Assembly: GCA_964017065.1 (NCBI GenBank)
Contig: OZ024786.1
Span: 228,646-292,645, forward strand
Origin: Haliclona indistincta
Lineage: Eukaryota > Porifera > Demospongiae > Haplosclerida > Chalinidae
Length of the DNA: 64,000 nt
Reading direction: 5' to 3'
A program made the translations under genes and the position numbers. The stretch's first letter is position 1; each line of letters starts with the position of its first letter. The notes under the pieces were generated by a model. It saw nothing but the letters and a program-made list of their open reading frames with translations, did not search any database and had not been told where the DNA came from. This document shows positions 110 to 35,088 of the stretch, piece after piece.

Positions 110-246
110 AGACTAGGAGTGCTCTACGTGATTTATGGCACGAGGGGTGTGGTCGAGTGGCTGATAAAGCACGAGGCGAAGCCGAGTGCTTTAATTATCA
201 GACACGAGATCACAGCCCGAGTGCCATAAATCACGTAGAGCACTCC
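110..246. repeat. CGAG-type palindrome 1
   Basis: The arms AGTGCTCTACGTGATTTATG and its complement at the other end form a long imperfect palindrome. The centre is GGCGAAGCC (GAA triloop) flanked on both sides by CGAG in the same orientation (172 and 183). Further CGAG boxes lie at 141, 154, 205 and 218. No coding potential is visible. Confidence 0.8.
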
Positions 247-258
247 TTGCCTATATTA

Positions 259-669
259 AAGGCGCGTTCACATGGAATCCACTTTTTGATGCGCATTCAA
301 TCCCCAAACTCGCCAAAGCGAATTGGAAGCGAATTCAATGCGCATCGCGAGCGTTCACATGTAGCGAATTGGATGCGAATTACGCAGCTATTCGATTTTA
401 AAAAGTCTACATCACGCTCTTCTTAGCCTTCAACGATGCTTTTGTAGCTTTAAACGTCCATTACAAAGCGTTTAGTCCACCAAGCGCCTTGTATCTACTC
501 GCGTCTGCCCACGCACTAAACGCAATTCGCTTTCAATCCACCTCCGGAGGTGGATTGAACGCAATGCGCATTGAATTCGCATCGAGCAGAAGCGGATTCA
601 TGTGAACGCTAACGAACCAGATTGAATGCGCATTCAATCCACTTTGCAGGGTCCATGTGAACGCGCCTT
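259..669. mobile_element. Inverted-repeat MITE, AAGGCGCGTTCACATGGA ends
   Basis: About 18 bp of matching terminal inverted repeat (AAGGCGCGTTCACATGGA at 259 and its complement ending at 669) encloses AT/GC-mixed DNA rich in TGCGCATTCAATCC-like words and their complements. No ORF of note. A related element with AAGGTGTGTCCACAC ends lies at 40393-41020. The termini resemble PIF/Harbinger or ISL2EU ends; superfamily not established. Confidence 0.6.
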
Positions 670-1673
670 AAGTGGTTTAAAGTATATGCCGCGGCTGGCT
701 GTAACGCTATAACCGAGTGAATTCCTTTAGCCGCTTGGCCCGTGCTTTATGGGAATTAAAGCACGTTCAATATGAACGCGATATTGTACGGTGGGCTGGG
801 TTCACGAAATACGTGATTTACAGGAAGCGCGGTGCCTTTGATTCCGCCCACGCATATACTTTAATCTCACTTAACCCTTTAATTACTAAATTATCCAGCT
901 GAAATTTTAACCTCGTAAATGCTGACCACTTCTCTCGTGAATATCTCGTGTGTCTTTTGTGCTACTGGTCTCAAATTTGCGTCCTTTTACCCCAGTGAGT
1001 AGCCGCAACTGCCCACACTCAAGTCGGTCAATATGCCCCTCCCACTTCGAAAGTGAAGCCAAAAAAGTGCAACGACCTCGTCAAATTTTGCTCAAAGTTA
1101 GTAGTTTGGGGCTGGCTGCTGAAAAGTACACACAAATAGCAGTGGTTTTGGTGAGTGCAAAATGTAGCCCAGATCATAGAGAATGCACAAAAATGTGTTT
1201 GCTAGCACCCTGAAGCCACAAAATGTCCAAATTTTCTTGGCAGCCATTTTGTTTTTCCTAAAACGTTGTGAAATTTGCACTGAAGCCATAGAAATGCTAT
1301 CGCCATAATGTTTGGCGCAGGGGGCGCGCCGAAAACCGGTCAATTTTTTGCGGTTATTTGTATTCTTCATTTTGGCTTAATTTTGGGATATTTTAACACT
1401 TTTTGATAAAGTTATGGTGTCTGAAGTATGTATGTCGCCAAAAGGCGACAATAGGGGTTAAAGGGTTAAGGTGGCGGGATACCGTTTTAATTAGATTCAT
1501 GACTTTGCAAGGGGCTATTTCTTTTTAAGCCAAGTCTATCTGTGCAGACGGAGTTGCAGTGTGCGCTTTGTTTGTCTATAGATAGGCATCGATAATAGCA
1601 AGTTTCAGCCACGTAGTGTTCGCCATCACGGAACGACGAGCTCGCCTGTGAAGACTAAACACGATCGAGTTTT
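670..1673. other. Non-coding stretch with an element terminus
   Basis: No supportable gene. GGTGGCGGGATACC at about 1471 is the complement of GGTATCCCGCCACC at 16662, and GTACCCGCCACC recurs at 63730, so this is probably the end of a dispersed element. Short ORFs here show no domain. Confidence 0.5.
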
Positions 1674-1952
1674 TACAATTTTTCTTTAGTTGTGTGAAAA
1701 GTACGAAGCTAAAACTGCTCTTGCAAGCTCATCTTCCATTCGTGGAGGAGCCTGCGTATCGATTTCGCCGAGCAATGCTCGTACGCGATACTGCAGCTAC
1801 GTACTGCCAGACAGTACAGAGTACGCAGCTGTAGTATCGCGTGCGAGCATTGCTCGACGAAATCCATACGCAGGCTCCTCCACAGATAGTAGATGAGCTT
1901 GCATGAGCAGTTTTAGCTTCGTACGTTTCACACAACTAAAGAAAAATTGTAA
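1674..1952. repeat. Near-perfect palindrome, about 135-bp arms
   Basis: ACAATTTTTCTTTAGTTGTG at the left matches the complement at the right end, and the match runs nearly to the centre around 1810 (GCAGCTACGTACTG region). It looks like a foldback MITE inserted at TA. Overlapping short ORFs on both strands encode near mirror-image peptides and are artefacts of the symmetry. Confidence 0.85.
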
Positions 1953-2172
1953 AAAATTAGTTCGCATTTTGTACATAATTACTTGATTCAACTATACAAC
2001 AAGTCTGTTTTATTTACAATTACTGAACCCGCCCACTGATAGTTACAAACCGAGAACCCTAACACCGCACGTGCCGTGAGGGTTCCCGTAATTTCCTAGG
2101 TACCAATCGGGGAAAAGTTTCCGAACCGGGTGGAACTACTGTATGCCTCGTGGCTCCGCCCACCGAGGCATA
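1953..2172. repeat. Spacer with one end of the ATGCCTCGG MITE
   Basis: About 2143-2172 holds the hairpin TATGCCTCG...CGAGGCATA with GTGGCTCCGCCCAC in the middle, the reverse of the left end of the MITE family seen at 11384, 16860, 28483, 41658 and 44452. Only the end is recognisable. It abuts the TRIM fragment. Confidence 0.6.
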
Positions 2173-2340
2173 ATAATAAAGTCAACAGATTATCACCTGT
2201 CCTGTGTGCTGCCAGACCACACAGCAACCCGACAAGGGAAGGGAGTGAGTAGACTCCAGTCGGCCTTCCTCATCAACAACCTCCTGGAGCTCCATCAAAT
2301 GCTAGAGAAGGTGTCTGCATTGGTCCCAGCAGAATAGTTA
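2173..2340 (+). pseudogene. TRIM-NHL fragment (RING end and linker)
   Basis: Translation gives CVLPDHTATRQGKG followed by QSAFLINNLLELHQMLEKVS, nearly the same as residues in the fuller copy at 3960-4080. The second RING C-P-V-C is degraded to C-V-L, and the frame ends at TAG about 2335. No NHL repeats follow. The fragment starts directly after a MITE end, so the upstream exon was probably lost with that insertion or by recombination. It is a dead partial duplicate. Confidence 0.75.
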
Positions 2341-2599
2341 ACTGTGTAGTGGGCATGCCCAGAAAGGCAGGATTTATTGATTTACTGTGCATCTAAAATA
2401 TTCTAATCACATAGTAATAAATGATGCTGTTATAGTGTTTGACAGGGGTGTTGATGTTACATACAGTGCTGGAAACACCAAATTATGCAATAAGATTGAT
2501 GGAAAAAATAAAAATAGCAAAACATATATCAATGAAGCCGAAGCTTAAAATGTCAGTATATAACATGTGACATACTGCATGTGTGACACTCAGTCGTAT
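2341..2599. other. Non-coding spacer
   Basis: AT-rich. 2430-2500 includes GTTTGACAGGGGTGTTGATG and AGTGCTGGAAAC, weakly similar to the small SRCR-gene exon that encodes FDKSLDGxFSAGN, suggesting further decayed SRCR material. Confidence 0.3.
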
Positions 2600-2660
2600 A
2601 GTCCTTTTCAATCTTCTCGTTCTCTAGTGATTCATTAGTTCCTAACAAACCCTTCACAAC
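2600..2660 (-). pseudogene. HDDC3/MESH1-like last-exon relic
   Basis: On the minus strand an AG acceptor (CTGCAG) precedes codons for VVKGLLGTNESLE, the start of the terminal exon of HDDC3-type hydrolases (family pattern VVKGLxGTNxxLE). After LE the sequence is altered and lacks the normal RGLSL ending. No upstream exons are next to it. One of four such relics in the window. Confidence 0.7.
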
Positions 2661-3074
2661 CTGCAGTATATAGATAGTACATATAGAGAGCACAATGAGA
2701 GTATGCTCCACATCTCTACAAACATGTTGGAATGATACTTTATCATGATTACAATTAATTTAGGAAGATTTCCTCCTAAAATTTCAAGCTTTTCTTGTCA
2801 TCAAAATATGTTGCTTGCTTGCTACTCAACAAGACAACACAACGAAAGAGTTTAAAGGTATTGTTTGACTTATGAAAAAAAATTTAATTTTGAAGAAATT
2901 CTCCGTGCACGCGCAGTTACATTTTATTCATGCAGGTGTATAATCAGGGCAAGCTATAGTGGAACACAAGCGCATAGGCATGCAGGGGGGCGGAGGCAGG
3001 GAGAGGCTAAAGGGGAAGATGTCCCCTTTTGTTAGTTCTTGTTATCAGCTGGATATATAGGTATAGTTCAGTGT
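2661..3074. other. Non-coding spacer
   Basis: AT-rich sequence without a supportable gene. No clear terminal repeats seen. Confidence 0.4.
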
Positions 3075-3415
3075 TACTGATGTTGGAAACTGCTGCTGCT
3101 TTTCGACAAAAGAAGCAAACCAACTTAACATAATAGGCCTCTCAGAAAGTAGCCTGGGTATTAATTCATTTATGTTTGCACAATTGTCATCATCTGAAAT
3201 GGCACAGCAATTCAATGTCATGAATACAACTAACAGTCAATCAATCTGTATAAATACACGCATGCAGATATAACAAGCCTACATGCGGATCGACAATCAT
3301 CTCCGATATAGCATGCGTCATGAAGTCAAGTTTCCTTCACCTGAGGGTGCATACATGTGACTGACACATGAACATTGATCAACGGAAGATTGTGAAGAGC
3401 TTGTGGAAATACAGT
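3075..3415 (+). pseudogene. Decayed SRCR exons
   Basis: 3075-3110 reads like the middle of the 140-nt SRCR exon (compare 18618-18660: GATGTTGGAAACTGCTGCTG against the intact copy). 3312-3415 matches the next exon (GAAGTCAAGTTTCC, GAGGGTG, GATTGTGAAGAGCTTGTGG, ATACAGTGT) with indels and stop codons. Order and spacing follow the intact SRCR genes at 18309 and 38652. It is an old, dead copy. Confidence 0.7.
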
Positions 3416-3794
3416 GTATTGAGCCACAATTATGTATTAGTTATTGCCCTCACACGAGGGCAATAAATGATTTATTACATAGTTCATCACTGTGAGCGCA
3501 ATAACATCGCGAATTTTTCAAACTTGCAAAGATGCAACGGTCTGTTGCTATAGAAGACGCTACGCGCGGTCAATAACCTACATTAATGCCCTCGAATAGA
3601 GCAATCCGATTGGTGAAAGATGACGTACTATGTAATAATTTTAGTTAGATCTCAAAAACTGAGTACTTGTAAACTCTGGCAACAATTATTATTGTGCAAT
3701 TTTCAGACAGATTTTAGAATTACAACGGGAAATTTTCGCCGTAGGAACTTTTCGCGAATCAGCGCTATTCACCTCAGTGCATGTACCACCCACA
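3416..3794. other. Partly palindromic spacer
   Basis: TTGCCCTCACACGAGGGCAA at about 3443 is a hairpin, and CATTAATGCCCTCGAATAG near 3580 repeats part of it. ACGCTACGCGCGG at about 3565 resembles the core of the CGAG-type palindromes in decayed form. May be a worn member of that class. It lies just upstream of the TRIM-like reading frame and could include its promoter. Confidence 0.4.
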
Positions 3795-4940: not shown

Positions 4941-5472
4941 GTGACCTATTGTTGTACGTTAAGTTATTAACGTTTTTGCTTCAATACATTATTACATGTA
5001 TGTGCAACTATAATTTCTAGTCGCTACGCGTATATATGATCACCAAATTGGTCATAATTCATGCAGGCATATTCAAAACCAGACTTGCATCATACAACTC
5101 ATCACTGCAGCCCCAAAACATAGAAATTCCTGGTAATGGACATTAGCAACAGAGAAGACAACCTCACATACACATGCTAAAATTAGAAGACAAGTTCGCA
5201 TACTTGTGCTAAAATTAGCAGTATTTTGCAGCTCCCTGGAGTTGCGTGATGTATGACCAGAATTGCCCGCAATTTCCACACCTGCATGAAGATATTCTTA
5301 GCTCCTGTATGTACAAAAAGTTTTATTATGCAAGTCTCATTTTAGTGTGCCTGATTTATGCTTGAGCCTTTTTGTAGACAAAATTTATCGTTAGACAGTT
5401 CATGTACATGTAATATTAGTCAATAATATCCTTGATAAGCACGATGATATGAACAAACACATGCACTCAGTC
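4941..5472. other. Non-coding spacer
   Basis: AT-rich; no gene supported. A short imperfect duplication (ACATGCTAAAATTAGAAGACAA, then TTGTGCTAAAATTAGCAG) occurs near 5170-5220. Confidence 0.4.
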
Positions 5473-6031: not shown

Positions 6032-6048
6032 CTGCATATGGGGAGAGA

Positions 6049-6112
6049 GAGAAAGGGGGAGAGGGAGAGCGAGAGAGAAAGGGAGAGAGGGAGAAGGAGA
6101 GAGAGAGGAATT
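6049..6112. repeat. GA-rich microsatellite
   Basis: Imperfect (GA)n/(GGGA)n immediately upstream (minus strand) of the HDDC3-like exon at 6031. Read on the minus strand it is a long pyrimidine tract next to the AG acceptor. The same arrangement recurs at 37503. Confidence 0.9.
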
Positions 6113-8158: not shown

Positions 8159-11100
8159 ATGACAATTTTAGTGACTTTTGCCGTTCTCCTGAGCAGCTGC
8201 AGCCTATGCATAGGTAAAAATATCTCCTGTGCTTGTTAACACCACTTTTTTTAACATGACTATAGCCAAAGACCAGGTATCATCAGACAAAATAACCCTC
8301 CTGGCCGTCGATCCGGCAGCTAATGAATCTGCCTGTCCTGGTCAAAACGTCACACTGAATTGCAGTGTGACAAGAACAGTAAGCAACAAAGAAATCCAAC
8401 AACTGCGAATAAGCTGGATATACAATAATGCTTTAACTGTAAATATTATTGAACCAACGAATAAGAACCTACAAGCAGAATTTATTGAACAAAATTATTC
8501 AGTAGTTTCAATCGTAAAAATTATCAATGTGAGACTGATCAATAACATAGAAATTCGCTGCGAAAGCAGTAAGAAATCGCAAAACTTGAGGATCAGTGCT
8601 GCAGGTATAAGCTAGATTTTTATAATCAAGTCAAATGTACATGTACTTTTGCATTTCAGGTGCAGCAAATGCACCAACAAGTATTAAAATTATTGCAACC
8701 AAGGTCCCAGCATCACTAACATGGCTACCTCCTCCTGATGGACCCACAGACTGTGTCTTCAACTACACTATCAATATCACTAACTACAGTAGCTCTAGCT
8801 CGTGCTACAGTACTAGCAACACTGAGTCACTGATACTGACTGATGACCTGATCACTCGTGGACACAACTACTCATTTGCTGTGGCTGTTACTGACAGTAC
8901 AGGACAACATGGACCATGGAGTGATCTCCTCATGGTGACGTATGATGGTATGAACATTCATTCTGTTCAATTTACGCCATGTCTACACATTTTTCTTCAG
9001 TTCCTGGTATTGTGAACCTCATGGCAGCTCAGTCAAAACAAACAAACATTGAAGTGATATGGCAGGTATGACTGCAGTGATATGGCAGGTATGACTGCAG
9101 TGATATGGCAGGTATGACTGCAGTGATATGGCAGGTATGACTGCAGTGATATGGCAGGTATGACTGCAGTGATATGGCAGGTATGACTGCAGTGATATGG
9201 CAGGTATGACTGCAGTGATATGGCAGGTATGACTGCAGTGATATGGCAGGTATGACTGCTTATCAAAATCGTATGATTTACGTTTTGTTGCTTCTTCAGT
9301 CTCCAGCCTTGATAGAATATTTCCCAGTCCTTCACTATGTAGTGTCTTATAATACCAGTGTTAACAGCACACTGATACACACACAAGTGAACTCTTCTAT
9401 GACTAGCTACACAGTGTCTGGTGTACCAGGAGTAACCTACTATATTACTGTGTTTGCTGTGAATGCTCTGGGACCAGGACCTATCAGTAATTACCGTACA
9501 GTGAAAGGTGAATAGTACACATAATGCATGCTGGGAAAGCAAAGGTGCTGTTTTGACACACTTTCGTGTGCTAAAATTCAAAATACATGTCCCCACACAA
9601 CACATGTATCCCACCTCGTGGGCGTATCAAAGGCACCGCCAGGGCAATATATTCCATACTGCCCCAACTGCAGGGCAATATGGAATATATTGCTGCCCTA
9701 GGGCAATATGGAATATATTGCCCGGGGCCACGATATGGTGCAGATATTGTCTGAAGGAACAGACAATATCTGCTGAAAGGGCAAGTAGCCCAAAAAATTT
9801 TTAACGTGGTACAGTGTTGACCACGTGGTAGAAAAATAGTGGTAGGGCAAGCCCTACCGGAAGGTACAGAGCACTATTGCGTTCGCTTTATATACCTCTT
9901 AAGCTTCCTTATGCTAGTGGGTTCCATTGTGGTCTTTTTACTATAGCACGTGTGATACTAAACATAGCACAAGTGATACTAAAAACAGTACAATGCAGTG
10001 GGATACGCCCACGAGGTGCGATACAAACACGTTAAACAGCGGTCCCTCGGGCAGTATGGAATATCCACTCGTGCAATCCAATTAGACCCCTCGGGCTGCG
10101 CCCTCGGGCTCTAATTGGATTGCCCTCGTGTATATTCCATACTGCCCTCGGACCGTTGTTTAACTAGTACATGTGCTGTTTGGCATTGCGTGCTGTTCCA
10201 AAAAACTAATATGTATATGGCCAGGAGCTCCGTATGCTGAATTCAATATGCCAGGAAGTAAGTGCGCTAAATCAGCAAATACAGTATCTAAGAGGCAAAA
10301 TCAGCACGTTGTCATGTGCCGTTTTGACAAGCATAGTGTTGTTTCTCAGCTCACAATTCACAGCCTAAAATTAATAGCACACCACTTTTCCTGTGTATTT
10401 TATTAGACTTAACTATTAATATTTATTTTAACAGTGTTTCTGATGCCCACAATTACTCCGTCATATAACCCTACTCTGAACACTACTCTGAACACTACTC
10501 TGAACACCACTCCGAACACTCCTCAAAATAGTTCCACTGCTCAAAATATCCCCACTCCAGGTTAGTCCAAAACATGATAGCACAATAAAACTGCCGAATT
10601 AAACATTACTTTTAACAAAAATGTAAAATGATTTACGGTTGATGAATTACAGAGAACAAGATTGGAATAGTGTAATGATAGTAGCCATAATGCTGCCTCC
10701 CTTGTAAATGAATCACACTAGATTAATTTAGGGCGGTAGCATTGGGCCATACAAAGTAGATTAGAGACATTTAGATTTACACGTTTTTGACCTGGACGTG
10801 TACGCGTAACGTGTAGATGATCACGTGAGCACCGCCCACTCACGCTACACGGTCGAGCACACGTCAATTTTCCCCGTTCTTAACGTGTAGGACCCCTTCT
10901 ACAGGTCGGCCGTTTCCCTGTAGTTCCTGTTGCTCAAGATTCCGTCAGCTCCACGTTTGTTATAGCTAAAAATGTAGCTTGATGCCTGCTCTATATGTTC
11001 GACTAGTTAAAGCGCTGATACGTGCTGTCTGTCACCTGCAGCACTCGACAGAAGAGAAGTAACCATAGATTCACTTACCGCTCGCTATCCACTGCACTGC

Positions 11101-14100
11101 TGGAAGCTCATCTGTGGCAGCAAACTTGTGCTGGCAGTTGTTTATAGCGTTTGAAATCTGTTTCAAGCCATGTCTTGGTGCAAAACCTGGAAGTTTGTAG
11201 CCGCCTCGCCACAAGTAAAAACCACACCTGTAGAATCTAAATCGCCACTGGAATTTCCCCTGTAACGTGAAACGCGAGTTACAGTTTACAGGTTACACGT
11301 TACGCGTAAAACGTGTAAATCTAAAGGTCTCTATTGTTAGTTTCTCGTCACCTCCCGCACAGATAAAATACCCGCATACTAGTTATGCCTCGGTGGGTGG
11401 AGCCACGAGGCATACAGTAGTCGTGGTGTCAGTCATTCTGTCGCAACGATTTCTCGTAGCTCGCTGAAAACTAATTGCTGAAACAAGCAACAGTGGTAGA
11501 AATCGATATTTGCTCGGATTTGAATTTTAAGAAGTTTGATTTTAAAGCTTAGTGCGTAAGTTACCATGTGAATAGCTCACCTGGATGGCTGTTGGTGGTG
11601 TTATAGACTTCTCTGGAGACAAAGTTGTCTACAGCTGGCTGCCTTGCAGCCAGTGAGTTTGTGAACAGCGTAGCAGACTTCTCCCTGCTGTCGCGAAGCT
11701 ACAAGACCGACCATCGCGAGCTTGGAGATGTTGCTCTCCATTTTGTGTGCCGCAGTTTTTCTACTTCTATGTGAATCGTAGCGGGCCAAGAACTCTTCAG
11801 TGTGTTCATCTATCGTATCTCCAGGTATTCAAGGATCCGATTTGCTGCGCGCTTCTCGAGTGCAGAGCTAGCGACGCTTGCTCATGGCTGTTTGGCGTTC
11901 AATCGTGTATCTAACGAACAAAAGAGAGATATCGAAAAAGCATCCTTGAAGTCCTAGATCCTGGGGTGGTAAGCGTGCTCATGTAGCTGTAAGCTCTTCG
12001 TTTAGCATCCTCGCGATGGCCGGTCTTGTAGCTTTGCGACGGCGGGGAGCATAGGCTCGAAACTTACATTAATCAGGTCCTAGAGACAGCGCGAGTAAGA
12101 CTGAGTGCAAAAAGCAGCCACCAAGTTCAGTCTTGTAGTGAAAATAACAGTATCCAGTTGTAGTAAACGCAGACTACTGGGCACCCTACTGAACAACTCT
12201 TAACAATCACTTGTACTTGTATTACTGTTTCTATTGTATCATGTCAGTCACTATATAAGCCCTGGTGGCCCATCTCTCATCATGCCATGCCATGCTATGT
12301 TCAGTCTGCCTGTCAATAATCATTTGCTGCACAGAGGTTGATTCTCTGTTACAATCACTCTGTCATCTGCTGCGTTAGCTGGCGTTACTACACGCGTATT
12401 CTGGCGACGAGGATGGCGACGTATGGTTCCATTGGAGAGTTTGACTCTGAGAAAGAAGAATGGATTCCATACATCGAGCGGTTGGACGAGTACTTCATCG
12501 CTAACGGTGTTGAAGACGAGACCAAGAAGAGGGCAATTCTTCTTAGCAGTTGTGGACACAGTACTTACCAAATTGCTCGCCGACTGTTCGCTCCAACCAA
12601 GCTCAATACCCAAACCTACGGAAAGGTTGTGGAAAGTCTAAGCGCACACTTCTCTCCAAAGCCGAAAGACATGGTGCAACGTTGCAAATTCAACGCTCGA
12701 GTGCGGCAACCTGGAGAAAGTATCTCGACCTTCTGTGCAGAGCTTCGCAGCCTTGCCGAGCATTGCAATTTCGAAGACGCCGCTCTAGAAAATATGCTAA
12801 GAGACAGACTGGTGTGCGGTATTTCAGACAGAGCAATGCAGCAGAGACTGTTGAGTGAGCCTAACCTGACCTTCAAGAAGGCTTACGACCTCGCTGTGCT
12901 AATGGAATCAGTGAGGAAGGACACCAGTCAGCTACAATCAAAGCCTCAAGGTGCTGACATACATTTTGTTCGTGGTGGTGATGCTGGTAAACAAAAAGCT
13001 ACGCCACGTGGCCATGGTCCACCGCTAAATCCATGCTACCGCTGTGGTGGACGACACAAGTCTTCTGTTTGCAAATTTAAAGAAGAGAACTGCCACTTCT
13101 GTGGTAAAAGAGGACACATTTCTCGTGTTTGTCGCAGTCGTCAGCGTCAGCAGCATCCTAAGTCTCGTCCGTCTGGAGCCAAGCCTGAACACGATGTGAA
13201 ACATGTCGACGTCAAGGACGCGGACACTTCCACGGTGCCGTCTGGTTCTACTGAGCAGCCTACTGATTCATCCGTTGTTGAAGATCCAGTCTACTGGACA
13301 TTTCAGCTGTCGAAACAGGGAACTGATCCACTATTGGTGACTCTCAGCGCTGACCAAGCAGACCTACAAATGGAGATCGACACTGGTGCTTCCGTCTCTG
13401 TTATCAGCGAGGAAACCTACCTGTCTGTTTGGCCTGAAGACCAACGCCCTGTTCTGCAGAAGTCCACTGCTCAGCTGCGTACCTACTCTGGAGAACTAAT
13501 GCATGTCTGTGGTTCAATTACTGTTTGTGTTTCCTACAGACAACAACAGAAGACACTACCTCTACTCGTGGTCAGAGGAGCTGGTCGACCCTTGTTTGGA
13601 CGAGATTGGATGAAGGAGATAAAGTTAGACTGGAAACTGCTACAGTCACTGCACTCTGTCAACAAGGTGGACGATCAGCTGCAATCACTCCTGGAGAACC
13701 ATGCTGAAGTGTTCAGAGATGAGTTGGGGTCATTGAAAGATGTTAAAGTAACATTGCAGATCTCTCCTGATGCACAACCATGTTATCACAGACCACGTCC
13801 TATACCCTATGCTCTACGCTCAAGAGTGGAGGATGAGCTGACTAGACTGGAGGAGGATGGCGTGATCGAACCTGTTGCTCACTCGGACTGGGCTGCACCT
13901 ATCGTGCCTGTCGTAAAGAGAGATGGGGCGATTCGAATCTGTGGAGACTTCAAAGTCACTGTCAACAAAGCCGCAAAGAGAGATATGTACCCTCTTCCCA
14001 AAGTTGAAGACCTCCTGTCTACTCTCGCTGGAGGAAAGTCATTCTCAAAACTAGATCTGAGTCACGCCTATCAACAGCTCCACCTCTCTGAAGAATCCAA

Positions 14101-19904: not shown

Positions 19905-21125
19905 TAGGGAGACACGGTAGTGTCTCCCTATGTAGGGTTGAACGAGAAAACAAGATGGCGGCTACATACAATGTATTAGCGTTCAAACGCTGATATTTCG
20001 CCAGGTGGTGAATTGTATACGTCCAAGGACACTTAGATCTGCTATCTGGCGTTGCCCCATCTTACAGTAGCAAGGAGAGCGCTCTACACTGTTACTAAAG
20101 TGACGAACCTAGAAACGGTGAAAATCGAGTTTCGTCATCTTCGTTTTCTTCTTCTTCTTTCTTTCTTTCTTCAGCGCGCCTAGCGCCTTTACGCGAGCAG
20201 TGCCGAGACCAAAACACCCACGAACAGTCGTGAAATTCTCCTGGCAGGTGCCTTTTGAACTTTGTTTTTAGCGAAACGGCGATATACATTCCGCGAGTTC
20301 TCGATCGTGATCCATTGTCAGCTAAGTGTTAGACGCCATTATTGTGATTGCGCAATGCGCACGTGACCAAGCAGTGGTTAGCGCACGTGACCAAGCACTA
20401 CCTTGAGTATCTCCGCGCCGTATAGATCACGGAGAAGACATATCTGTCTGGAGTCTTCAACGGTAAGGTCGTCTGATCACCATTCTGCGCTTGCCAGATA
20501 ATTATAACCGCCGTACAGATCTACAAACTAGTGTGGGCGGGGCTCGTATGCACTTCATATGCATGCATGTATGCGTAGGCGTGCTGATTATTATGTACAG
20601 CATAACAATTATTATTTTTAGCTACAAGTTTAAAATTGTTAATAATGAAGAAAAGCCATCAACAACAGGAAAACTAAATCAATGGTGGAAACAAAGACGG
20701 CTCAGTATGTTCATGATATTGAACTGCACTTCACTAAAAAGTAAAAAGGACACAAACAAGAAATTAAAAAGATTTCTATCGAAATCAAAAGGATGTAGGG
20801 TTGTGAAATCTACCACTGGTTCACAATATAAACTAACAAGGAACAAGCATGCATGGAATGGTAACACGATTGACTTGCTAACAGACCATAGATCCCTACA
20901 TCAGTGGCTGTGCACAAGCTGAATGCACGTCAGGTGTTAGCAGTCAACAGCAACTAGGTCAACCACAGCAGCCACTGATGTAGGGATCTATGGTCTGTTA
21001 GCAAGTCAATCGTGTTACCATTCCATGCATGCTTGTTCCTTGTTAGTTTACATTGTGAACCAGTGGTAGATTTCACAACCCTACATCCTTTTGATTTCGA
21101 TAGAAATCTTTTTATTTTCTTGTGT
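19905..21125. mobile_element. Composite element, copy 1 (GGGAGACACGG start)
   Basis: Starts GGGAGACACGGTAGTGTCTCCC, runs through AACAAGATGGCGGCTACATA and ends with a foldback unit at 20757-21124 (arms about 150 bp: AGATTTCTATCGAAATC to its complement). The same series occurs at 26856-30216. The ORF at 20491-20922 is not supported by any domain. Probably a non-autonomous DNA transposon family. Confidence 0.7.
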
Positions 21126-21135
21126 AATATATAAA

Positions 21136-21300
21136 CCATGGCTTGGAGGTGTGTATGCCGAATATACCACTCGAGGTCAGAGGAAGTTTGCAGCCGAGAT
21201 AAACCCCGAGCGAAGCGAGGGGTTTATCGAGGCTGCAAACTTCCGATGACCGAGACCGAGAGTGGTATATTCGGCATACACACCGACAAGCCATGGTTCA
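21136..21300. repeat. CGAG-type palindrome 4
   Basis: Arms AACCATGGCTTG to CAAGCCATGGTT. CGAG at 21172, 21195, 21207, 21216, 21228, 21251 and 21257, all one orientation; spacing is symmetric about the centre (23, 12, 9, 12, 23). Core GCGAAGC (GAA triloop). Confidence 0.9.
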
Positions 21301-21721
21301 TATGTTATATACCTTAGTGTGTGGGCGTCGCTTTTTGCTCGTGCTCGCGTGGATCTCGATTTAGCGGTGAGTCACGGGCCGAGAGGAGGCCCCAAGTGTG
21401 TACGCGTACCTGAGTAGAGTGTGTGGCAAAGACTTGGACAGCTTTGTGCTTCTAGAGCGAAAGAGCGATCGCCAAGTTTTCTTGTATTCATTGCAATATT
21501 CAACATGACTTGGGCGGGGTTTGTCACATGCTTGCCAATTTAATACCCACTAGTGTCAGGATGATTGTACACTATAAATCTCAGCCACTTCTGCGCATCT
21601 TCGTCCTGCAACTGGGTGCTGCTAGTTGCAAGGCGAACAACTGTCCGAGGATGCCCTCTGGCAACCTCAACCTGGTCACGTGACCAGGGAACACCTCTTG
21701 GTTAACCCCTAGAGGAGTGTA
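21301..21721. other. Non-coding spacer
   Basis: No domain-bearing ORF. GCTGAGCC/GGTTAACC-rich; nothing further recognised. Confidence 0.4.
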
Positions 21722-21812: not shown

Positions 21813-21867
21813 CCACCTGTGCCTTGTATTGGGACGCCCACACTCTATGGTATATATACGTATATAC

Positions 21868-22007: not shown

Positions 22008-22571
22008 CTGAAGTAGTAAAATTTACTTTAAAATTTTCTGATGACAAAGTTTTCCTATTTCTAGTGTATATACATGTAAAAGTTTTGATATACGTAATGA
22101 GCTGTCCAAATGTAATGTTTCGCCACACACCTCAGTGTATAAAAATTGCCATGTTATAATAATTATTATTATAAATAATTTTGTAACATACATAATAACA
22201 CTAAGGTGTAAGGAAAGGGACACAAAGAAAACAACTAAACTAACAGAGGTAAACAAGAAAAAAAACAATAATGCACTTATTGGAATTATTTAAAACTGAA
22301 CTTTCTCTATCTGGATTCATAGTTGTTATCAGATCAGATCAGCAATGATATTTCAGTAGTAAAATAATGTTCATGAATAATCTTATGAATAATATTTTAT
22401 TGTTCTCCTGATAGGCCTTGTCGACGTTCTGATAAGCTAAACTGTATTGTATGTACTACACGTTTGTATAACTTATCTAATGTAGATATTACTATGGCTA
22501 TGCAGTATAATGCATGCCTCTAGTGCAATGCAGCTTTGTTGGATAGTATACAGTATAGTATAGATATAAGT
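22008..22571. other. Non-coding AT-rich spacer
   Basis: No supportable gene or element ends. Confidence 0.4.
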
Positions 22572-22703
22572 TAGACGACGAGGCCATGGGATCTACGCTG
22601 TTTAGAAACCGAGGCGGGTTTGTTGTGACGACCGAGCGTAGCGAGGTCGTTACATAACCCGGCCGAGGTTTCTAAACCGCGTAGATCCCATTGGCCGAGG
22701 CGT
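22572..22703. repeat. CGAG-type palindrome 5
   Basis: Arms TTAGACG...GGATCTACGC to the complement. CGAG at 22579, 22610, 22633, 22642, 22664 and 22696, one orientation (31, 23, 9, 22, 32; symmetric). Core GCGTAGC (GTA triloop). Confidence 0.9.
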
Positions 22704-22711
22704 CTAACTAT

Positions 22712-23320
22712 TTTAGAGTATAGCCACGAGTAGCTAAGCAACACTCACACGACGGATTTTGTAAACAAAGAAATGGCGTCTGTTTTTGAAAAGACGAGGC
22801 GTGCTAAAGTTGTTTCTTACGTAGTTCTGAACAGAGAAAGTGCAATCTTCGATGGCGAACAATACTCAGCAGTACTCTTACACAAACGTTAATGTTTTGG
22901 TAAGTCAAGCGCCTCTAGCATCATAAACTGTCCACACAGAAGCTCTTTGGGTCACCAGCCATGCATGTGCGCCACTATAACAAACTCTACCCTGGCTTTT
23001 GAAACTCCTCCCCTGCCACGGCATGCTTGTGCGCACTGTACTGCGGACTCGCGACTAACGATCGAAAGCGAGCAACATGTCTAGCTCGCCTCCACTCGTC
23101 TATCTGCGCTACGTGTCAACTAGTCGTCGCTCTTCTTTATGATAGTCTTTTCGTTATGCAGAGAGAATGAATCCAACAATTTCTGTACTGATTCAAGTTG
23201 GCTTCTAAGTAGCGCGGCTTGGATACTAAGTGCGCGGTTTGGATACTAAGCTATTTAGAGTCCAAGCTGTAGTCAATCTCATTGGTCAATATCACTAGAC
23301 TATACTCTAAATATAATTAT
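22712..23320. mobile_element. Inverted-repeat element, TTTAGAGTATAG ends
   Basis: TTTTAGAGTATAG at 22714 pairs with CTATACTCTAAATA at about 23306. Near 22772 an ATG opens 39 codons (MASVFEKTRRAKVVSYVVLN...) of no known family. Short TIR, so moderate confidence. Confidence 0.5.
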
Positions 23321-26829: not shown

Positions 26830-26880
26830 CATGTAGCTATTAGGGAGGCACGGTATTAGGGAGGCACGGTAGTGCCTCCC

Positions 26881-27648: not shown

Positions 27649-28482
27649 GTGCCTCCCTATGTAGGGTTGAACGAGAAAACAAGATGGCGGCTACATACAA
27701 TGTATTAGCGTTCAAACGCTGATATTTCGCCTGGTGATGAATCTTATACGTCCAAAGACACTTAACTCTGCTATCTGGCGTTGCCCCATCTTACAGTAGC
27801 AAGGAGATTGCTCGAGATTGTTACTAAAGTGACGAACCTGGAAATCGAGTTTCGTCATCTTCGTTTTCTTCTGTCCTCTTCTTTCTTCTTTCTTTATCCC
27901 ACTCGCCATCACCATTCTGCCTTGCCAGATAATTATAACCGCCGTAAACAAGTGTGGGCGGGGCTCGTATGCACTGTATTTATGCATAATATCTATGATT
28001 TATGCATGCATGGCGAGCTGGTATCTACAGCATAAGAATTATTTAGCTACAAGTTTTATTGTTATTAATAAAGAAAAGCCATCAACAACAGGAAAACCAA
28101 ACCAATGGTGGAAACAAAGATGGCACAGTAATTGCATGATATTGAACTGCACTTCACTGAAAAAGAAAAAAGGACACAAAAAAGAAAATAAAAAGATTTC
28201 TATCAAAATCAAAAGGATGTAGGGTTGTGAAATCTACCACTGGTCAACAATGTAAATTAACAAGGAACAAGCATGGAATGGTAACACGATTGACTAACTA
28301 ACAGACCATAGATCCCTACATCAGTGGCTGTACATAAGCTGTCACAAGCTGAAGGCACGCCAGGTGTCAGTCAACAGCAACTAGCCGAACTAGCTATAGC
28401 CAACCACACCAGCCACTGATGTAGGGATCTATGGTCTGTTAGCAAGTCAATCGTGTTACAATTCCATGCTTGTTCCTTGTTA

Positions 28483-30136
28483 ATTATGCCTCGGTGGGCG
28501 GAGCCACGGGGCATACAGTAGTCGTGTTGTGTATCTGTGTATCTGTCTGTCTGTCTGTCGGCAGGATTTCTCGTCGCTCGCTAAAAACTAAGCGCTGAAA
28601 CGTGCAACACAGGCTAAAGTCGATATTTGCTTGAAAATGAATTGTAAGGATTTTGGCTATAAGGCTCTGTTCGTGAGATATAGCGTGATTACTTACTCGC
28701 GATCGCCGGCTGGCGATCTAGTTGCTGATGTAAAGACAAATTTGTCTATTGCTGGCTGCCTTACATCTAGTGAGTCCGCCTTTACTTCAGAACAGCACGG
28801 CAGACTTGTATATGAAGCTGCGTTCTAGAGTTATGGCGTCACTATCACTTCCAACTTCTCCTGGTCTAAACATTATGACACTATCTGTTCCTCAGCCTAC
28901 TATTCCTTGTACTTAATAAGAAGAAACATCTCTACACTGATTCCAGTCCACATCAAATGACTCTTGTATCTAACATTGGTTCGATCAAAGCTATCATATT
29001 GTTCGCAAGTGTGGAGGCCTTATCAGATATGTGACATATCCCGACTTGAACGAGTGCAACGTAAAGCCACCAAATATATACTTGGTCCTACAACTGCCTC
29101 TTACAAAGACAGATTGGTTTCACTGAAAATTCTTCCTTTGATGCAGTGGTTTGAGCTTCTCGATATTCTGTTCCTTGTAAAGTGCATCAAAAACCCTCCA
29201 GATAATTTCTCCCTCTCAGACTATTTCACTTTCACTTCTGGTCCCACACGTTCAACCTCTAATTTCAAACTAAAACATACCTTTTCGAGATTTTCGGTTA
29301 CTCGGCATTTCTATTTTAATCGAATCCCAAGACTATGGAATTCTCTTCCTCCCATTGACACAACTAAATCTATTCAAACTATCAAATATGACTTAATAAA
29401 TTTTCTTTGGTCAAATTTCTTAAAATCTTTTAATCCATCTAATCCTTGTTCTTTCCATTTCTTGTGTCCGTGTAATAAGTGTGTTCCTGTAGGTTTCTCC
29501 ACATATTCTTTTGTATAAGCCGTGTATAAGCATGTAATTTCTTCTTTTTTTTTTCTTCTTTTCCATTCAGCTGTATATATTTTTATGTACAGTCTGTCAG
29601 TCACTCAATCAAATTTATCTCATCATTATTTTATTTCTCATCCTTTTGTGACTGTAAAGCAATAATATGAATATGAATATGAATATAGCTTTGCTTACCT
29701 AGCGATCGATGCCGATGGCCGTTGCTGGCGATCTAGAGTTCTCCGTAGACAAAACTATCCACAGTTGACTGCCTAGAAGCTGATAGGTTACTAAAGAAAT
29801 TGTGTAAGCAAGCTATGGACGCTAACTCGCTCGTTGTACGTGCTGTGCCCTGAACAATATAGACACGCCCAGTTGAATTAGTGGTCAGCACTGATTGGCT
29901 TCTAATTGCATAACTATTATACTGCATTGTGATTGCTCTACAGAAAGGTACAACTGCTGCAGTTTAACTTTAGTGTGTATGTTTGTAACAGCAACTGCTA
30001 AATAATAAGCTCAAGATCATGTTCAACTAGCAACAGCAGACTTTCAGTACTGCTTGTGTATTTCAGTTCAGCGTATTTAGTCAGACAGACATGTATGCAT
30101 AACATTCCACCGAGGCATAAGCACCTTCGGTGCCTA
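28483..30136. mobile_element. ATGCCTCGG MITE carrying a LINE
   Basis: Left hairpin TTATGCCTCGGTGGG, right hairpin GCACCTTCGGTGCC. The body matches 16860-17708 on both sides of a LINE fragment (CTAGAGTTCTCCGTAGACAA at 29731 and 17231). Inserted in composite element copy 2. Confidence 0.85.
28870..29690 (+). pseudogene. 5'-truncated LINE reverse transcriptase C-terminus
   Basis: The 184-codon frame from 28964 reads LYLTLVRSKLSYCSQVWRPY, LERVQRKATKYILGP, SLKILPLMQWFELLDILFL, ending FHFLCPCNKC. This is the thumb/C-terminal region common to CR1/L2/Jockey-like non-LTR reverse transcriptases. Coding similarity continues upstream (NISTLIPVHIK) past a TGA at 28958, so it is mutated as well as truncated. 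The 3' end is a short AATATG repeat (29661-29687), a typical LINE tail. No endonuclease or RT catalytic core remains. It sits inside a MITE. Confidence 0.9.
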
Positions 30137-30216
30137 GTTTACATTGTTGACCAGTGGTAGATTTCACAACCCTACATCCTTTTGATTTCGATAGAAATCT
30201 TTTTAATTTTCTTGTA

Positions 30217-30902
30217 CAGAATGGTGTTATTGTGATATATCACAATTCTGCCATTAGCCTGTATGCTACTAGCTTGAACTGATAAGTCATCATTATACAA
30301 CTTATACTACAGTTCAATGTAATTCTAGAATCTGATTGGTCAGTTGGAGGATAATAAATCACGTATTCTTCCGCGGGAACTCGTATTTTTCCGCTGGAAC
30401 TCATATTTTTCTGCTGGAACTCATAGTCATGTTTTCCTTTGTCATGAGTTTCTTTTGTACAGGTAATAGCTTTGGTAGTTACTGGGCCAGTACGTGTTGT
30501 GTTTGCTTCTGGCATGGGCAGCACAGCGTCTATAGACCCGGGTACTTGGCTACGATCGATGCCGGCAACGATTGACTTGTTGTGCATGAAAAACGTAAGA
30601 AAGCAAGTAACTCACCACGTTTTGCTGTTCACAGCTTAAACATTGCCTAATAAACGCACACAGCACGTACAAAAGACTGCTGGACTCTAGTAACTATCGT
30701 TCTAACCGTTCGTTGGAGTCCAAGTTCAGCCATGTAACGCAAAGTGGCGTTTGTGGGTGTGGCAGCCGGGTCACAGCACGTGTTTTCGAGCAAGAAGAAA
30801 CGCTCATGCTGCAAGAACTCAGCAGCTTTGGGACGGTCATCAACCATTGTTTTTCAAAAATTATCTGCGTCAGTTTGTTGCCATGTAGCTGTAGTATAAA
30901 TA
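30217..30902. other. Non-coding spacer with 20-bp triplicate
   Basis: CGTATTTTTCCGCTGGAACT occurs three times in a row with variation at 30361-30425. Otherwise no supportable gene. Confidence 0.5.
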
Positions 30903-31049
30903 CCTTAGACGACGAATCATCGGCAACTACAGGATTTAGAGCGCCTTGGCAACCAAAATAGACGCCCTCGCGCTACGCGCTCGGAACGTCTATACATCGG
31001 TTCCCGCGGCACTCTAAATCCCGTAGTTGCCTCGATCCGTCGTCTAACC
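30903..31049. repeat. CGAG-type palindrome 6
   Basis: TTAGACGACG...AGACG arms. Core, read on the minus strand, is CGAGCGCGTAGCGCGAGG: CGAG boxes 13 bp apart in one orientation around a GTA triloop hairpin (plus-strand CTCG at 30967 and 30980). Confidence 0.85.
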
Positions 31050-31106
31050 TATATTTATAATACATGTTTCAGTGGATCATATGTGCTCTTCTCTCTACCA
31101 ATACAG

Positions 31107-31151
31107 GTTGTTAAGGGTTTGTTAGGAACTTATGAATCACTAGAGCAGAAG
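31107..31151 (+). pseudogene. HDDC3/MESH1-like last-exon relic
   Basis: Acceptor AATACAG followed by VVKGLLGTYESLEQKIQ and a stop where the better copy (5473) continues DVLDTRGLSL. Plus strand, convergent with the SRCR pseudogene at 31239-34047, the same 3'-to-3' arrangement as 36096/36469. Confidence 0.8.
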
Positions 31152-31238
31152 ATTCAATAAGTGTTACAGACTGCACTGATATCAATAATGTGCTAAGTTG
31201 TATGCACTATTATAATTATGTGTTACTAGGTTCACTGA

Positions 31239-34047
31239 TTATTTGGACGCTGACCATGCATTTGGATCATTTGGATCATCAGGATGAGCAGGAACAGCAG
31301 GATCAACAAGATCATTGCCATCGTAATTAATACCCGCATATCCATTGCGGCGTTGTTGGCGTACTTTATTGATGCAAAATAGGATGCCAATCACTGCCCC
31401 TATTAATGTGATGAATCCCAATATTATCATTGCTGCTATACCAGCATCTTGAAGAGCCTGGCTTTTTTCTGTAAACAAGTTGAATAAACTGTAACAAAAT
31501 ATGTCATTAATTAACCAGCTCGATAAGTGCATAAATTAAATTAAATTTATTTCCAGCACTAAAAATACCATCAAGACTCTTGTCAAACCCTAAGCGAAGC
31601 ACATCAGGTAAAATAGTATTCTGAGGATCTGACATGCACTTACGGCAGACTGCAACTGAACTCAAAAAAAACTATAGATGCTTGTAAATGTTTACTTTGA
31701 AGAAATTGGAGGTTGACTGGAGCTAGTGAATCCTAACTGACGGCATGCTGAATCAGCAGAACTGTTCGACATGTACGATTTGTTCCGCGCATTCTAGGAA
31801 TTTGCGCATTCTATAGAATGCGTTGCGCTTTCTAGGAATTCCTAGAATGCGTGCCATTCTATAGAATGGCGGGCGTTCTATAGAAAGCGCAACGCATTCT
31901 ATAGAATGCGTAATCTACAGAATGCGCAAGGAACTTGCTCATTCTGTAGAGTGCAGCAAACACGCGGAGTTATGTCTGAGAGTATTCCCCTACACTAACT
32001 TGCAGCGATGAGCTTAGTAATAAGTCCAGTCAGCGAGGCTATGATAATCGATCAGTGCTGACTCGGAACCATCGTATCTTTCACTGAATCAGTCTCCGGC
32101 AACGGTGCACCGTTGCATGAGACTGATTCCTGTTTAGAGAGCGCAATTTCTAAACGTTGACCATGCTAGAGAACAAGGTTGATACTGTATGAAATTTACA
32201 ATGATAACAAACAACTAGACAAGAGTATGCACGATTGTGTTGACACACTTTTGCAGTGATGATACACAACTAGAATGATTTTTGCTTGAGTTGTCACTCT
32301 CACACCATTAAGTAATCTATACGAGCTGCTAGTCCATCTCCCGCTCGATTAACTGTCATTTTTACAAGAAGGTGGAGCTACGTACAGTGTGGGAATGTTG
32401 CATGATAGCGGTCAGGGAGAATTATAGGTACAATTGTAAAACAAGACAGGACAGCAATGGGATTGAATGTGGTGTGTTCACTATCATGGTATTTAAATTG
32501 ATTTTATGCACGGCAGCTGATCTAGCTGGACATGTATGACATCATGATTGTCTTTGCAATTGCATAAGTATTACAGTAAATTTAGTGTAATGCTTATGTA
32601 ATTGCAAAGACATGATGATAAGCTTATCATACTGAATTATGCTAAGCTGATGACAATGATGGTTGCAAAGTAGCTGCAAAGACATGATGATAGTGCCTTT
32701 GCAGCCATACCTTATCATCATCAATAGCATTAGCCACTTCTTTACAGCTAAGCCACACAATTGATGATGAGTCTTTATTTACAGCCCTGTTATGGTCGAA
32801 CACATAATAATCACTATAATGAGACTATAAATATTTACCATGGGCAAGGACGCCCAAGTGCATGCTGTATGAGCAAATTGAGCCCTAGTGAGCAATTACA
32901 CACAAAAACTCAGTGCATGCCAGTTGTTTCAGTGCTGAAGGTATGTGTTCACCTTGTGCTTGACCTATTTTGATAGTAGTAAACAAAACACACAGCAGTG
33001 ATGTAGGTGCATGTAAAACTCATACGCAGTCTGTGATAATTAGTGTTATCTACCATCGTATTTGTGGCATGTCAGCCTAGATAAACCAAAAGTGGTCATT
33101 TTGTTCACATACTGTTTTGAAATCATGGTCAGCATCACAAACCTTGTACAGTCCATACTACTAGGTGATAGTAATGATACATGTCCAGCTAGATCAGCTG
33201 CCGTGCATAAATTAATTTAATTCCATGATAGTGAACACATGCACCACATTCAATCCCATTGCTGTCCTGTCTTGTTTTACAATTGTACCTATAATTCTCC
33301 CTGACCGCTATCATGCAACATCCCCACACTGTAGCTCCACATTCTTGTAAAAATGACAGTTAATCGAGCTGGAGATGGACTAACACCTATAGATTACTTA
33401 ATGGTGTGAGAGTGACAACTCAAGCAAAAATCGTTCTAGTTGTGTATCATCACTGCAAAAGTGCATGTGTCAACACAATCGTGCATACTCTTGTCTAGTT
33501 GTTTGTTATCATTGTAAATTTACAGTATCAACCTTGTTCTCTAGCATGGTCAACTTTTAGAAATTGCGCTCTCTAAACAGGAATCAGTCTCAACGGTGCA
33601 CCGTTGAGACTGATTCAGTAAAGATACGATGGTTCCGAGTCAGCACTGATCGATTATCATAGCCTCGCTGACTGGACTTATTACTAAGCTCATCGCTGCA
33701 AGTTAGTGTAGGGGAATGCTCTCAGACATAACTCCGCGTGTTTGCTGCACTCTACAGAATGAGCAAGTTCCTTGCGCATTCTGTAGATTACGCATTCTAT
33801 AGAATGCGTTGGGCTTTCTATAGAATGCCCGCCATTCTATAGAATGGCACGCATTCTAGGAATTCCTAGAAAGCGCAACGCATTCTATAGAATGCGCAAA
33901 TTCCTAGAATGCGCGGAACATATTTAGTGCACACTGTTAACCATGTTTTATCAAAGTTAATCTGTAACAGTTCAGTACGATCACCGCTACTATCTTCAAT
34001 CCTGCGGATCTGACCATTGTATTGCTGATCACCAGAATCAACAGTAC
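31239..34047 (-). pseudogene. SRCR receptor copy, 3' half, inverted and broken
   Basis: Minus strand. 34047 down to about 33920 and 31781 down to about 31700 are two halves of the second SRCR domain's first exon (GDQQYNGQIRRIEDSS..., ...SACRQLGFT) split by a 2.1-kb foldback element. The following exon is almost entirely deleted (only GTCTGCC|GTAAGTG remains near 31645). FDKSLDGIFSAGNK has an 8-nt insertion (about 31545). The last exon 31468-31239 is open: a TM helix (GIAAMIILGFITLIGAVIGILF as two adjoining stretches) and a longer acidic tail (DGNDLVDPAVPAHPDD) than copies B and C. The signal and first SRCR exons are absent. The break at 34047 is at the same exon position as the break in copy A. 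Confidence 0.85.
31782..33919. mobile_element. 2.1-kb foldback transposon with palindromic end arrays
   Basis: Arms of about 750 bp (31782-32540 and 33176-33919) are inverted copies with few differences. Each outer end has a run of 16-bp palindromes of the GCATTCTATAGAATGC type and variants. The 630-bp loop contains a smaller inverted repeat (TTGCAATTGCATAAG near 32552). No transposase. Inserted in an SRCR exon; AAAT-like bases on both sides may be the target duplication. Confidence 0.9.
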
Positions 34048-34740
34048 ATTACCTAAGAGTATGCAACCGTCATTGTACCCCACCACACCCATAGATCAAA
34101 GGAAAATGGCATGGTATATATCCCATATATACACCTCTGGACAAGAATACGAGTGAACATCAAGTTGCAAATTGTTTTTTTTTCCTGCTTTTAGAGGCAC
34201 GAAGCACCGGAATTACTAAAGGACCGACATGCAGTGCCACGGTGGTCTCTAGCTCTCGTCTAGTCGTCTGCAGTACGACGTAGAAGCACACGCTGACCTG
34301 GCAACGCTCGGTCGGTTCCTACGTCTAGACAATCACCACAAACGGTTCCTACGTCTAGACAATCACCACAAACCTTAGATCGTTCCTCTCAGTACTAGCA
34401 CACCTCGAGCAAGACAACTGAAATCGACATCAGCGTCTTCGAGCAAGCCTTACACTAGCGATAGGTGGCTTCAACAAAACTAAGGCATCTAAACTGAAAC
34501 TACTGCTACCTGAAACGCTAACTAAAGGAGTACAACGCCTGTAGACACCACAGCAGAGAGATGGAAGTGGATCCCTAGCTGCTCCAAATCGTCACCATAT
34601 TTTCATGCTGAGCATGTGCTGACCTACTGCGCATGCTCAGTAAATGAAACAAAATGGCGGACGACTAGTAGCGCATGAATCTCAGTACGAATTATATCTC
34701 ATATAGCTAGCCTCGTCCCCAGGCTCTCGATATAGAGCCT
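34048..34740. other. Spacer beginning with breakpoint repeat
   Basis: 34046-34073 shares GTACATTACCTAAGAGTATG and following bases with 19013. CGGTTCCTACGTCTAGACAA is directly repeated at 34314-34365. No gene supported. Confidence 0.6.
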
Positions 34741-34883
34741 GGTACACATTGTACGCGCATGCGTTAATTATGTCCAAATATGGCATGATCAATTGAATGG
34801 CATGATTGGGCAAATTCAACTGATTCGGTGAAAAATCATGCCTTATTTGGACATAATTAACGCATGCGCATACAATGTGTACC
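34741..34883. mobile_element. Foldback MITE, GGTACACATTGTACGC ends
   Basis: About 47-bp arms (GGTACACATTGTACGCGCAT; TTAATTATGTCCAAATATGG) with a short loop. Nested in a second, shorter inverted repeat (GTCCCCAGGCTC / GAGGCGGGGCCTGAGGAC). Confidence 0.85.
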
Positions 34884-34954
34884 AGGCCCTCTCCTCAGCT
34901 TTGGGAGGCGGGGCCTGAGGACGAGGCTACTCATATAGCATGATTCATCGGTCT

Positions 34955-35088
34955 ATATACTGTATATAAACCTGCAAGTCGGCCAATTTGGAAACATATC
35001 GCCCTCGGGCCTGCGGCCCTCGGGCGATATCTTTCCAATTGGCCTCCTTGCAGGTTTATATAATGTATATAGACCTCTGAATCATGCT
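34955..35088. repeat. CGAG-type palindrome 7
   Basis: Arms TAGCATGATTCATCGGTCTA to complement. On the minus strand the core is CGAGGGCCGCAGGCCCGAGG: CGAG boxes 15 bp apart around a GCA triloop hairpin (plus-strand CTCG at 35004 and 35019). It lies about 75 bp before the first exon of SRCR copy B. Confidence 0.9.

Follow-up and report, generated by a model that had tools for sequence, protein, structure and literature searches.

Palindromes of a sponge genome that share tandem G·A pairs and GNA triloops on one strand, read as candidate hairpin ends of small mobile elements

Seven long palindromes in a 64,000-nucleotide stretch of the Haliclona indistincta genome (hereafter the window) differ in the sequence of their arms and agree in the fold of one strand. 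In each of them the strand that reads CGAG places CGAG boxes opposite one another as tandem G·A pairs and closes on a C-GNA-G triloop, and the same core recurs hundreds of times across the assembly. We lean towards the reading that these palindromes are the hairpin end of small non-autonomous elements working like Helitron2/Helentron-type rolling-circle transposons, with the folded strand being what is recognised. The kept G·A pairs, together with the restriction of the loop polarity to one strand, suggest that what has been preserved is the shape of a single folded DNA strand.

Fold of the CGAG strand in the window

The seven palindromes listed in the initial annotation are real, with edges that were off by a few to about 40 bases, and two direct boxes around a short hairpin are seen in every one of them. 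At the reference score the window holds 15 hairpins, compared to 0 in one mononucleotide shuffle of it, and the density of the class is uneven, with 7 palindromes in the 64-kb window vs. 1 in five 10-kb stretches elsewhere. The plus strand shows CGAG in four palindromes and CTCG (CGAG on the minus strand) in W10031, W30903, and W34955. The CGAG:CTCG counts on the plus strand are 6:0 for W110, 0:6 for W10031, 4:0 for W19269, 7:1 for W21136, 6:0 for W22572, 0:3 for W30903, and 0:2 for W34955.

When the CGAG strand is aligned arm to arm, each palindrome forms one long hairpin (about 130–180 nt across the class) with the central boxes opposed in 7 of 7. In antiparallel alignment CGAG/CGAG gives C-G, G·A, A·G, and G-C. 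The boxes once described as breaking the symmetry are thus tandem G·A pairs, non-Watson-Crick but facing each other in the folded strand, and that part of the description has to be given up. The further claim of same-orientation boxes at mirror positions in the arms survives for most of them; one CGAG of W21136 lies in a bulge, and the outer boxes of W30903 are weak. All seven loops are C-GNA-G (Table 1). The complement of the CGAG strand carries T·C mismatches at the boxes and TNC at the loops, and ViennaRNA assigns the lower energy to the CGAG strand in all seven palindromes under both RNA and DNA parameters (one of the DNA differences being only 0.1).

The arms had been reported to lack mutual similarity. 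This holds among the seven, which form seven separate 10-mer clusters over their central 123 nt, and it does not extend to the genome, since four of them (W19269, W21136, W22572, and W30903) have relatives among the fetched loci and thus represent repeat families.

Table 1. Hairpins, element bodies and inverted copies located in the window
Feature	Positions	Strand	Basis and remarks
Hairpin W110, loop GAA, three tandem G·A boxes	95..259	+	fold; TAATAC on the minus strand just outside, as 3' end signal
Inverted copy of W110 inner-side sequence, 14-nt core of an 18-nt match; probably the element's far end	656..669	-	
Hairpin W10031, loop GCA	10016..10179	-	fold; TAGTAC just outside
Inverted copy of W10031 inner-side sequence, 14-nt core of a 17-nt match	9612..9625	+	
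Hairpin W19269, loop GGA, two CGAG/CGAG boxes plus TGAG/CGAA	19250..19412	+	TATTAC outside; family B (L009, L016, L022)
Family B element body starting with hairpin W19269	19413..19910	+	88–93% match to L009, L016, L022; the family's far end is unaligned here
Hairpin W21136, loop GAA; tandem G·A at five sites, of which two (GGAG/CGAC and AGAG/CGAT) have paired neighbours other than CGAG	21125..21307	+	fold; TATTAC outside
Element starting with hairpin W21136	21133..21862	+	second copy in L028; 92.7% and 91.7% matches
11-nt inverted copy of W21136 inner side	from 21833		
Hairpin W22572, loop GTA, three tandem G·A boxes	22554..22722	+	without TANTAC; relative in L019
12-nt inverted copy of W22572 inner side	23300..23311	+	
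Hairpin W30903, loop GTA, central CGAG/CGAG, other boxes weak	30890..31064	-	TAATAC outside; relative in L033
Hairpin W34955, loop GCA; tandem G·A at three sites, of which two have paired neighbours other than CGAG	34933..35108	-	without TANTAC

Several other repeats lie in the same window. An inverted repeat at 20756–21123 with 155-nt arms, 99% complementary, ends just before the element of W21136 and is a young palindrome of a different kind. Those at 1670–1955 (136-nt arms, 92%) and 28255–28485 (76-nt arms, 96%) are without mirrored CGAG boxes, and two similar inverted repeats based on GCATTCTATAGAATGCG stand about 2 kb apart at 31802–31913 and 33788–33899. Long frames at 12338–16399 and 50707–59189 are LTR retrotransposon-like as judged by reading (gag, protease, reverse transcriptase, integrase), those at 53057–54106 and 59087–60351 resemble PIF/Harbinger-type transposases, and positions 44142–44341 are a run of 200 N.

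Genome-wide cores, stem composition and covariation

Pattern counts were made over the whole 144-Mb assembly, with the pattern read backwards or the reversed loop as controls. The core CGAGGGC-NNN-GCCCGAG has 560 matches (275+285) against none (0+0) when read backwards, and among 100 matches listed, 96 have GNA loops with all four bases at N, the rest being GCT twice, GAG, and ACA. The form CGAGNNC-GNA-GNNCGAG has 884 matches (454+430) vs. 9 (8+1) backwards. The reversed-loop core CGAGNNC-TNC-GNNCGAG occurs once (1+0), so that the loop polarity is 884:1. Genome-wide counts of the boxed centre, a check that had been proposed, are thus far above control. The figure of 884 is a minimum for cores of one layout, and any copy number above it is extrapolation. 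A first genome pattern, which was badly designed, gave 108+113 matches vs. 334+304 backwards and was discarded.

The boxes themselves were left free in the pattern CNNGGGCNNNGCCCNNG, which has 757 sites vs. 6 in the control; 560 of the 757 are GA/GA. Among 50 of these sites listed, 34 are GA/GA and 16 have other forms (e.g., CAAG..CGAG or CGCG..CAAG), some of which could be products of CpG decay, and none of the 50 has Watson-Crick pairs at both box positions. With longer inserts, CGAGGGC-N(4-9)-GCCCGAG has 69 matches, of which 64 extend the stem and retain the GNA tip and 5 do not, with none having an insert of exactly 4 nt (table read by eye). The looser CGAGNNC-NNNN-GNNCGAG gives 476 vs. 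413 in the control, and among the 79 of its matches with letters shown, 25 are CGAGCGC-CTTA-GCGCGAG. The copies read of this CTTA-loop repeat are short hairpins in which neither a long palindrome nor an inverted subterminal copy was detected. The repeat carries the G·A box, which means that the box is not bound to GNA alone and that GNA is a rule for 3-nt tips rather than for all tips. A short hairpin of this kind, with facing CGAG boxes and a 4-nt CTTA loop, lies on the minus strand of the window at 50435–50452, with TACTAC following on the plus strand and a variant in L032. In IMG/VR viral contigs the 17-nt GNA core occurs in 74 stretches and the reversed-loop core in 15, possibly due to base composition or short hairpins; at a stem score of 30, none of 75 GNA-core matches there is a long relative (best score 24, from a script that misjudges short stems).

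Among the fetched sequences, 42 C-GNA-G centres reach a stem score of at least 30 (one copy being counted twice through the overlap of L017 and L018). They fall into 14 clusters, 13 of which belong to this class: the seven window palindromes occupy seven different clusters, cluster 9 is W30903 with its box split by the alignment, and cluster 7 is the sole unrelated one. When every cluster of the 14 is represented by its best member, 30 of 42 two-by-two internal loops are GA/GA, and the neighbours are paired in all 30: CGAG/CGAG in 24, GGAG/CGAC in 2, AGAG/CGAT in 2, TGAG/CGAA in 1, and CGAA/TGAG in 1, so that 6 of the 30 tandem G·A sites have paired neighbours other than CGAG/CGAG. At the central box a first base other than C is found in 16 cores genome-wide (scoring that base only), vs. 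560 exact CGAGGGC-NNN-GCCCGAG. CGAG is strongly preferred at the central box, and the tandem G·A is the feature common to all.

The behaviour of the stem under divergence was followed in an alignment (A2) of seven copies of two related families, D and E, with 58 stem pairs. Here 98.5% of cells are paired, against 31–46% when the partner is slid by 1–3 columns, and both sides have changed in 16 of the 58 pairs (43 cells). Compared to 500 shuffles, a treatment that takes no account of kinship among the copies, the paired cells, the both-side-changed cells, and the covariation score all lie above every shuffle; 20 of the 500 shuffles reach the observed number of both-side-changed pairs and 487 the number of pair types, so these last two measures add nothing. 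The central box is GA/GA in 7 of 7 copies. At the second box the outer G·A is kept in 7 of 7 and the inner in 5 of 7, with A·A in the other two, and the pair beside this box went from G-C to A-T, turning CGAG/CGAG into CGAA/TGAG. The copies of family A (alignment A1, 12 copies, 72 pairs) show 3 pairs changed on both sides, a number reached by 10 of 500 shuffles, with the central G·A in 12 of 12 and the next box in all 11 copies that have letters there. Conversion from arm to arm could also maintain pairing, but it should erase the G·A mismatches, and these stayed. The earlier proposal of a class defined by architecture, with box positions retained as the arms diverge, is therefore borne out by the covarying pairs and the lasting boxes.

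Element anatomy and the search for a Rep-helicase partner

In the multi-copy families the palindrome is one end of an element of about 340–970 bp. It stands at one end in all 12 aligned copies of family A (about 337 bp), which read as unique flank, GTATTAG (ATATTAG in one copy), hairpin, about 170 bp, ACTATGTAATAA, and unique flank. On the inner side TTATTACATAGT adjoins the hairpin, inverted relative to the other end, and a corresponding inverted far-end copy inside the hairpin is found in family B (TTGTACCC), family C (TTTAGACC), family D (TTGTATCATAG), and family E (TTGTACCATAG against TTGTATCATAG). The longest exact inverted inner-side copies in the window measure 18 nt for W110, 17 for W10031, 12 for W22572, 11 for W21136, W30903, and W34955, and 8 for W19269. 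Of 1902 random window places, 156 have an inverted copy of at least 11 nt and 92 one of 14; such lengths are reached at random since the window is rich in inverted repeats. On the outer side, two window elements have inverted matches of 29 and 18 nt beside neighbouring repeats, and an automated exact-match test on ten locus elements found copies of at least 11 nt for three of the inner sides and two of the outer sides. The automated test being weak, the plan of inverted copies rests on the family alignments.

The motif TANTAC is present at the outer end of 5 of 7 window elements and 3 of 10 locus elements, vs. 313 of 5000 random 51-nt windows; by family, it is present in A, B, and D and missing in C and E. 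Flanking target duplications, which had been named as a point to examine, are absent at the two readable sites, L009 and L011, which lie inside a 20-bp tandem array and have flanks that rejoin without loss or duplication (compared by eye). The 5' end of family A is constant and its flanks are variable. In family C, TTTAG at both ends makes the absence of a target duplication ambiguous. Six pairs of neighbours are arranged head to tail, five of them complete (starts 368 or 372 bp apart) and the sixth with a partial copy, and the two pairs read have direct junctions. Canonical Helitron1 ends (5'-TC, CTRR-3', insertion between A and T) were not found, the ends being TTRT... and ...TAC or ...ATTA. 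The cut-and-paste MITE plan of terminal inverted repeats at both ends plus a target duplication was not found either, as the inverted copy is asymmetric and duplication is lacking.

The genome has 86 Helitron_like_N matches, about 40 of them in open frames above 2100 aa, and two copies, L056 and L057, are 99.9% identical over 8.6 kb. From these long frames and near-identical copies, Helitrons look recently active in this genome. Among the 3' sides of 13 loci (8 type A, 3 type B, and 2 of a third group), none belongs to a Rep-helicase element ending in a G·A hairpin. A hairpin of the G·A class is present at two of the eight type-A loci (L058, L060–L062, and L066–L069). The one at L058 terminates a separate 377-bp element that has copies in dozens of other places, and at L060 a 10/12 inverted copy at L060:834 suggests that the hairpin element starts there and is probably separate as well, so both were rejected as the autonomous partner. 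The 3' end shared by type A, …GCACCTTCGGTGCCTAGTT, is a short hairpin without a box, whose loop on the coding strand is TTC (GAA on the other strand) in three places and TTT in two; where GAA stands on the non-coding strand, the loop polarity is the same as in the boxed palindromes. Type B (L056, L057, and L059) and the third group (L159 and L160) have no G·A-class hairpin in the stretches examined.

Comparison with known systems and reading of the mechanism

The nearest counterparts of these elements are the non-autonomous Helitron2/Helentron elements (HINE, DINE-1), which likewise have an inverted copy of one terminus beside a hairpin at the other end in an asymmetric plan, no target duplication, and tandem copies (PMC3627910, PMC4067079, PMC5148889). 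The features shared with Helitron2/HINE are the inverted terminal copy inside the hairpin, the hairpin at the 3' end, the lack of duplication, and the head-to-tail copies. The sponge elements differ from HINE in that their hairpins are far longer than the 5–10-bp palindromes published for HINE (PMC4067079), and in the tandem G·A and GNA on one strand. The 5' hairpins of the Fusarium Helitron2 elements FoHeli1 and FoHeli2 have C-GAA-G loops, as here, on short stems, and no G·A boxes are mentioned in the sections of that account available (PMC5148889). Outside eukaryotes, Streptomyces telomere palindromes also fold back as DNA with GCA, GGA, and other GNA loops, which are attributed to sheared purine pairing, some of the loops being CTTG (PMC7205883). 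Those are, unlike the present palindromes, bacterial chromosome ends and not mobile elements.

The choice of strand in integron attC sites is linked to extrahelical bases, and the mark in the sponge hairpins is instead the opposed G·A. What the two have in common is that the palindromes are set by structure over sequence, with only the bottom strand of attC being used (PMC2727003). Published work also describes GAA as the most stable DNA loop known, owing to its sheared G-A pair (PMC9828363), and closing interactions common to the DNA d(GNA) triloop and the RNA GNRA tetraloop (PMC5815330). In the literature searched, which excludes most subscription journals, titles and abstract openings contain no description of a tandem G·A code in transposon ends.

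CGAG/CGAG in DNA forms sheared pairs, and the G·A pairs here are probably sheared, judging from their sequence context. The CGAG strand is predicted to fold into a rod in which tandem G·A and the C-GNA-G triloop replace the Watson-Crick pairs of the palindrome, with the complement left with T·C and TNC. In the multi-copy families the far terminus recurs, inverted, on the inner side of the hairpin, which extends nearly to the end of the element. The simplest reading has the elements going through a single-stranded DNA stage in which an enzyme or the replication machinery meets one strand of the hairpin. Tandem G·A and GNA would then give a tight fold to one strand and less of one to the other, a strand mark that may survive change in the arms, and a folded single DNA strand, rather than RNA or duplex, would be the target of selection. 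A Rep-helicase acting in trans might read this strand as an end or stop signal. In the Helitron orientation the folding strand would belong to the template at the 3' end, and a tight hairpin there could halt strand displacement; with the opposite polarity of transfer, the folding strand would be the transferred one, with the hairpin at its left end.

Several observations count against the Helitron2 reading, besides the long hairpins and the lack of a Rep-helicase partner among the 13 loci read. In the Helitron orientation the strand that folds tightly is complementary to the one usually regarded as transferred; TANTAC is missing from families C and E as well as from 2 of the 7 elements of the window; and the box also occurs in the CTTA-loop repeat. 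An alternative that we regard as unlikely is another form of single-strand DNA transposition, in which the CGAG strand is transferred and the hairpin, as its left end, is recognised through its structure by an enzyme of the HUH Y1 or tyrosine-recombinase type, comparable to IS200/IS605 or attC. The fold specific to the CGAG strand, with its loop polarity, the lack of duplication at two sites, and the lack of a Rep-helicase partner among the 13 loci read all agree with it, and the TTTAG of family C, present at each end and in a single copy at tandem junctions, would be compatible with a short site of crossover or cleavage. The inverted subterminal copy beside the hairpin is, however, the Helitron2 plan, and TTAT follows the hairpin end in only 5 of 12 family A copies. 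No Rep-helicase element with a G·A hairpin end was found among the 13 loci read, so these elements are candidate rather than assigned members of Helitron2/Helentron, despite the matching anatomy.

Tandem G·A is a common RNA motif, and RNA parameters also favour the CGAG strand in all seven palindromes, so the hairpins might act as folded transcripts whose tandem G·A shields them from RNA enzymes or presents them to these. We hold this to be improbable: the GNA triloop at their tips is favoured in DNA and corresponds to the GNRA tetraloop of RNA (PMC5815330), Rfam models at gathering scores have 0 matches in window positions 1–36000, and the anatomy is that of DNA elements. If the palindromes were ordinary foldback elements or MITEs mobilised by a cut-and-paste transposase, and CGAG a site bound by protein in the duplex, this would account for a central box that is nearly always CGAG, and they would be at home among the many other inverted repeats of the window. 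This explanation is very improbable in our estimation, given that the palindrome makes up just one end of the element and that family A has no target duplication; it also leaves the GNA polarity and the 6 of 30 tandem G·A sites with paired non-CGAG neighbours unexplained. Of the initial interpretation, then, the class defined by architecture stands, with counts far over control and seven palindromes that do not align to one family, and the exception to symmetry falls; the position at one end of a larger element and the same-strand GNA triloop had been missed.

A bolder possibility, to which we give a low probability, is that an animal genome contains at least a thousand mobile elements that are recognised in the form of one folded DNA strand, by a G·A and GNA code independent of the arms, a eukaryotic counterpart of attC or of IS200/IS605 ends with the CGAG strand transferred, perhaps by an enzyme not yet known. 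If the findings are confirmed, it would become testable how a Helitron-like end hairpin is read without conserved sequence. Non-Watson-Crick DNA pairs would then have been written by selection hundreds of times on one strand only, giving direct sequence evidence for a folded single DNA strand as a working form of these elements, and the strand-specific tandem G·A with a GNA loop would serve as a search key for folded single-strand DNA in other genomes.
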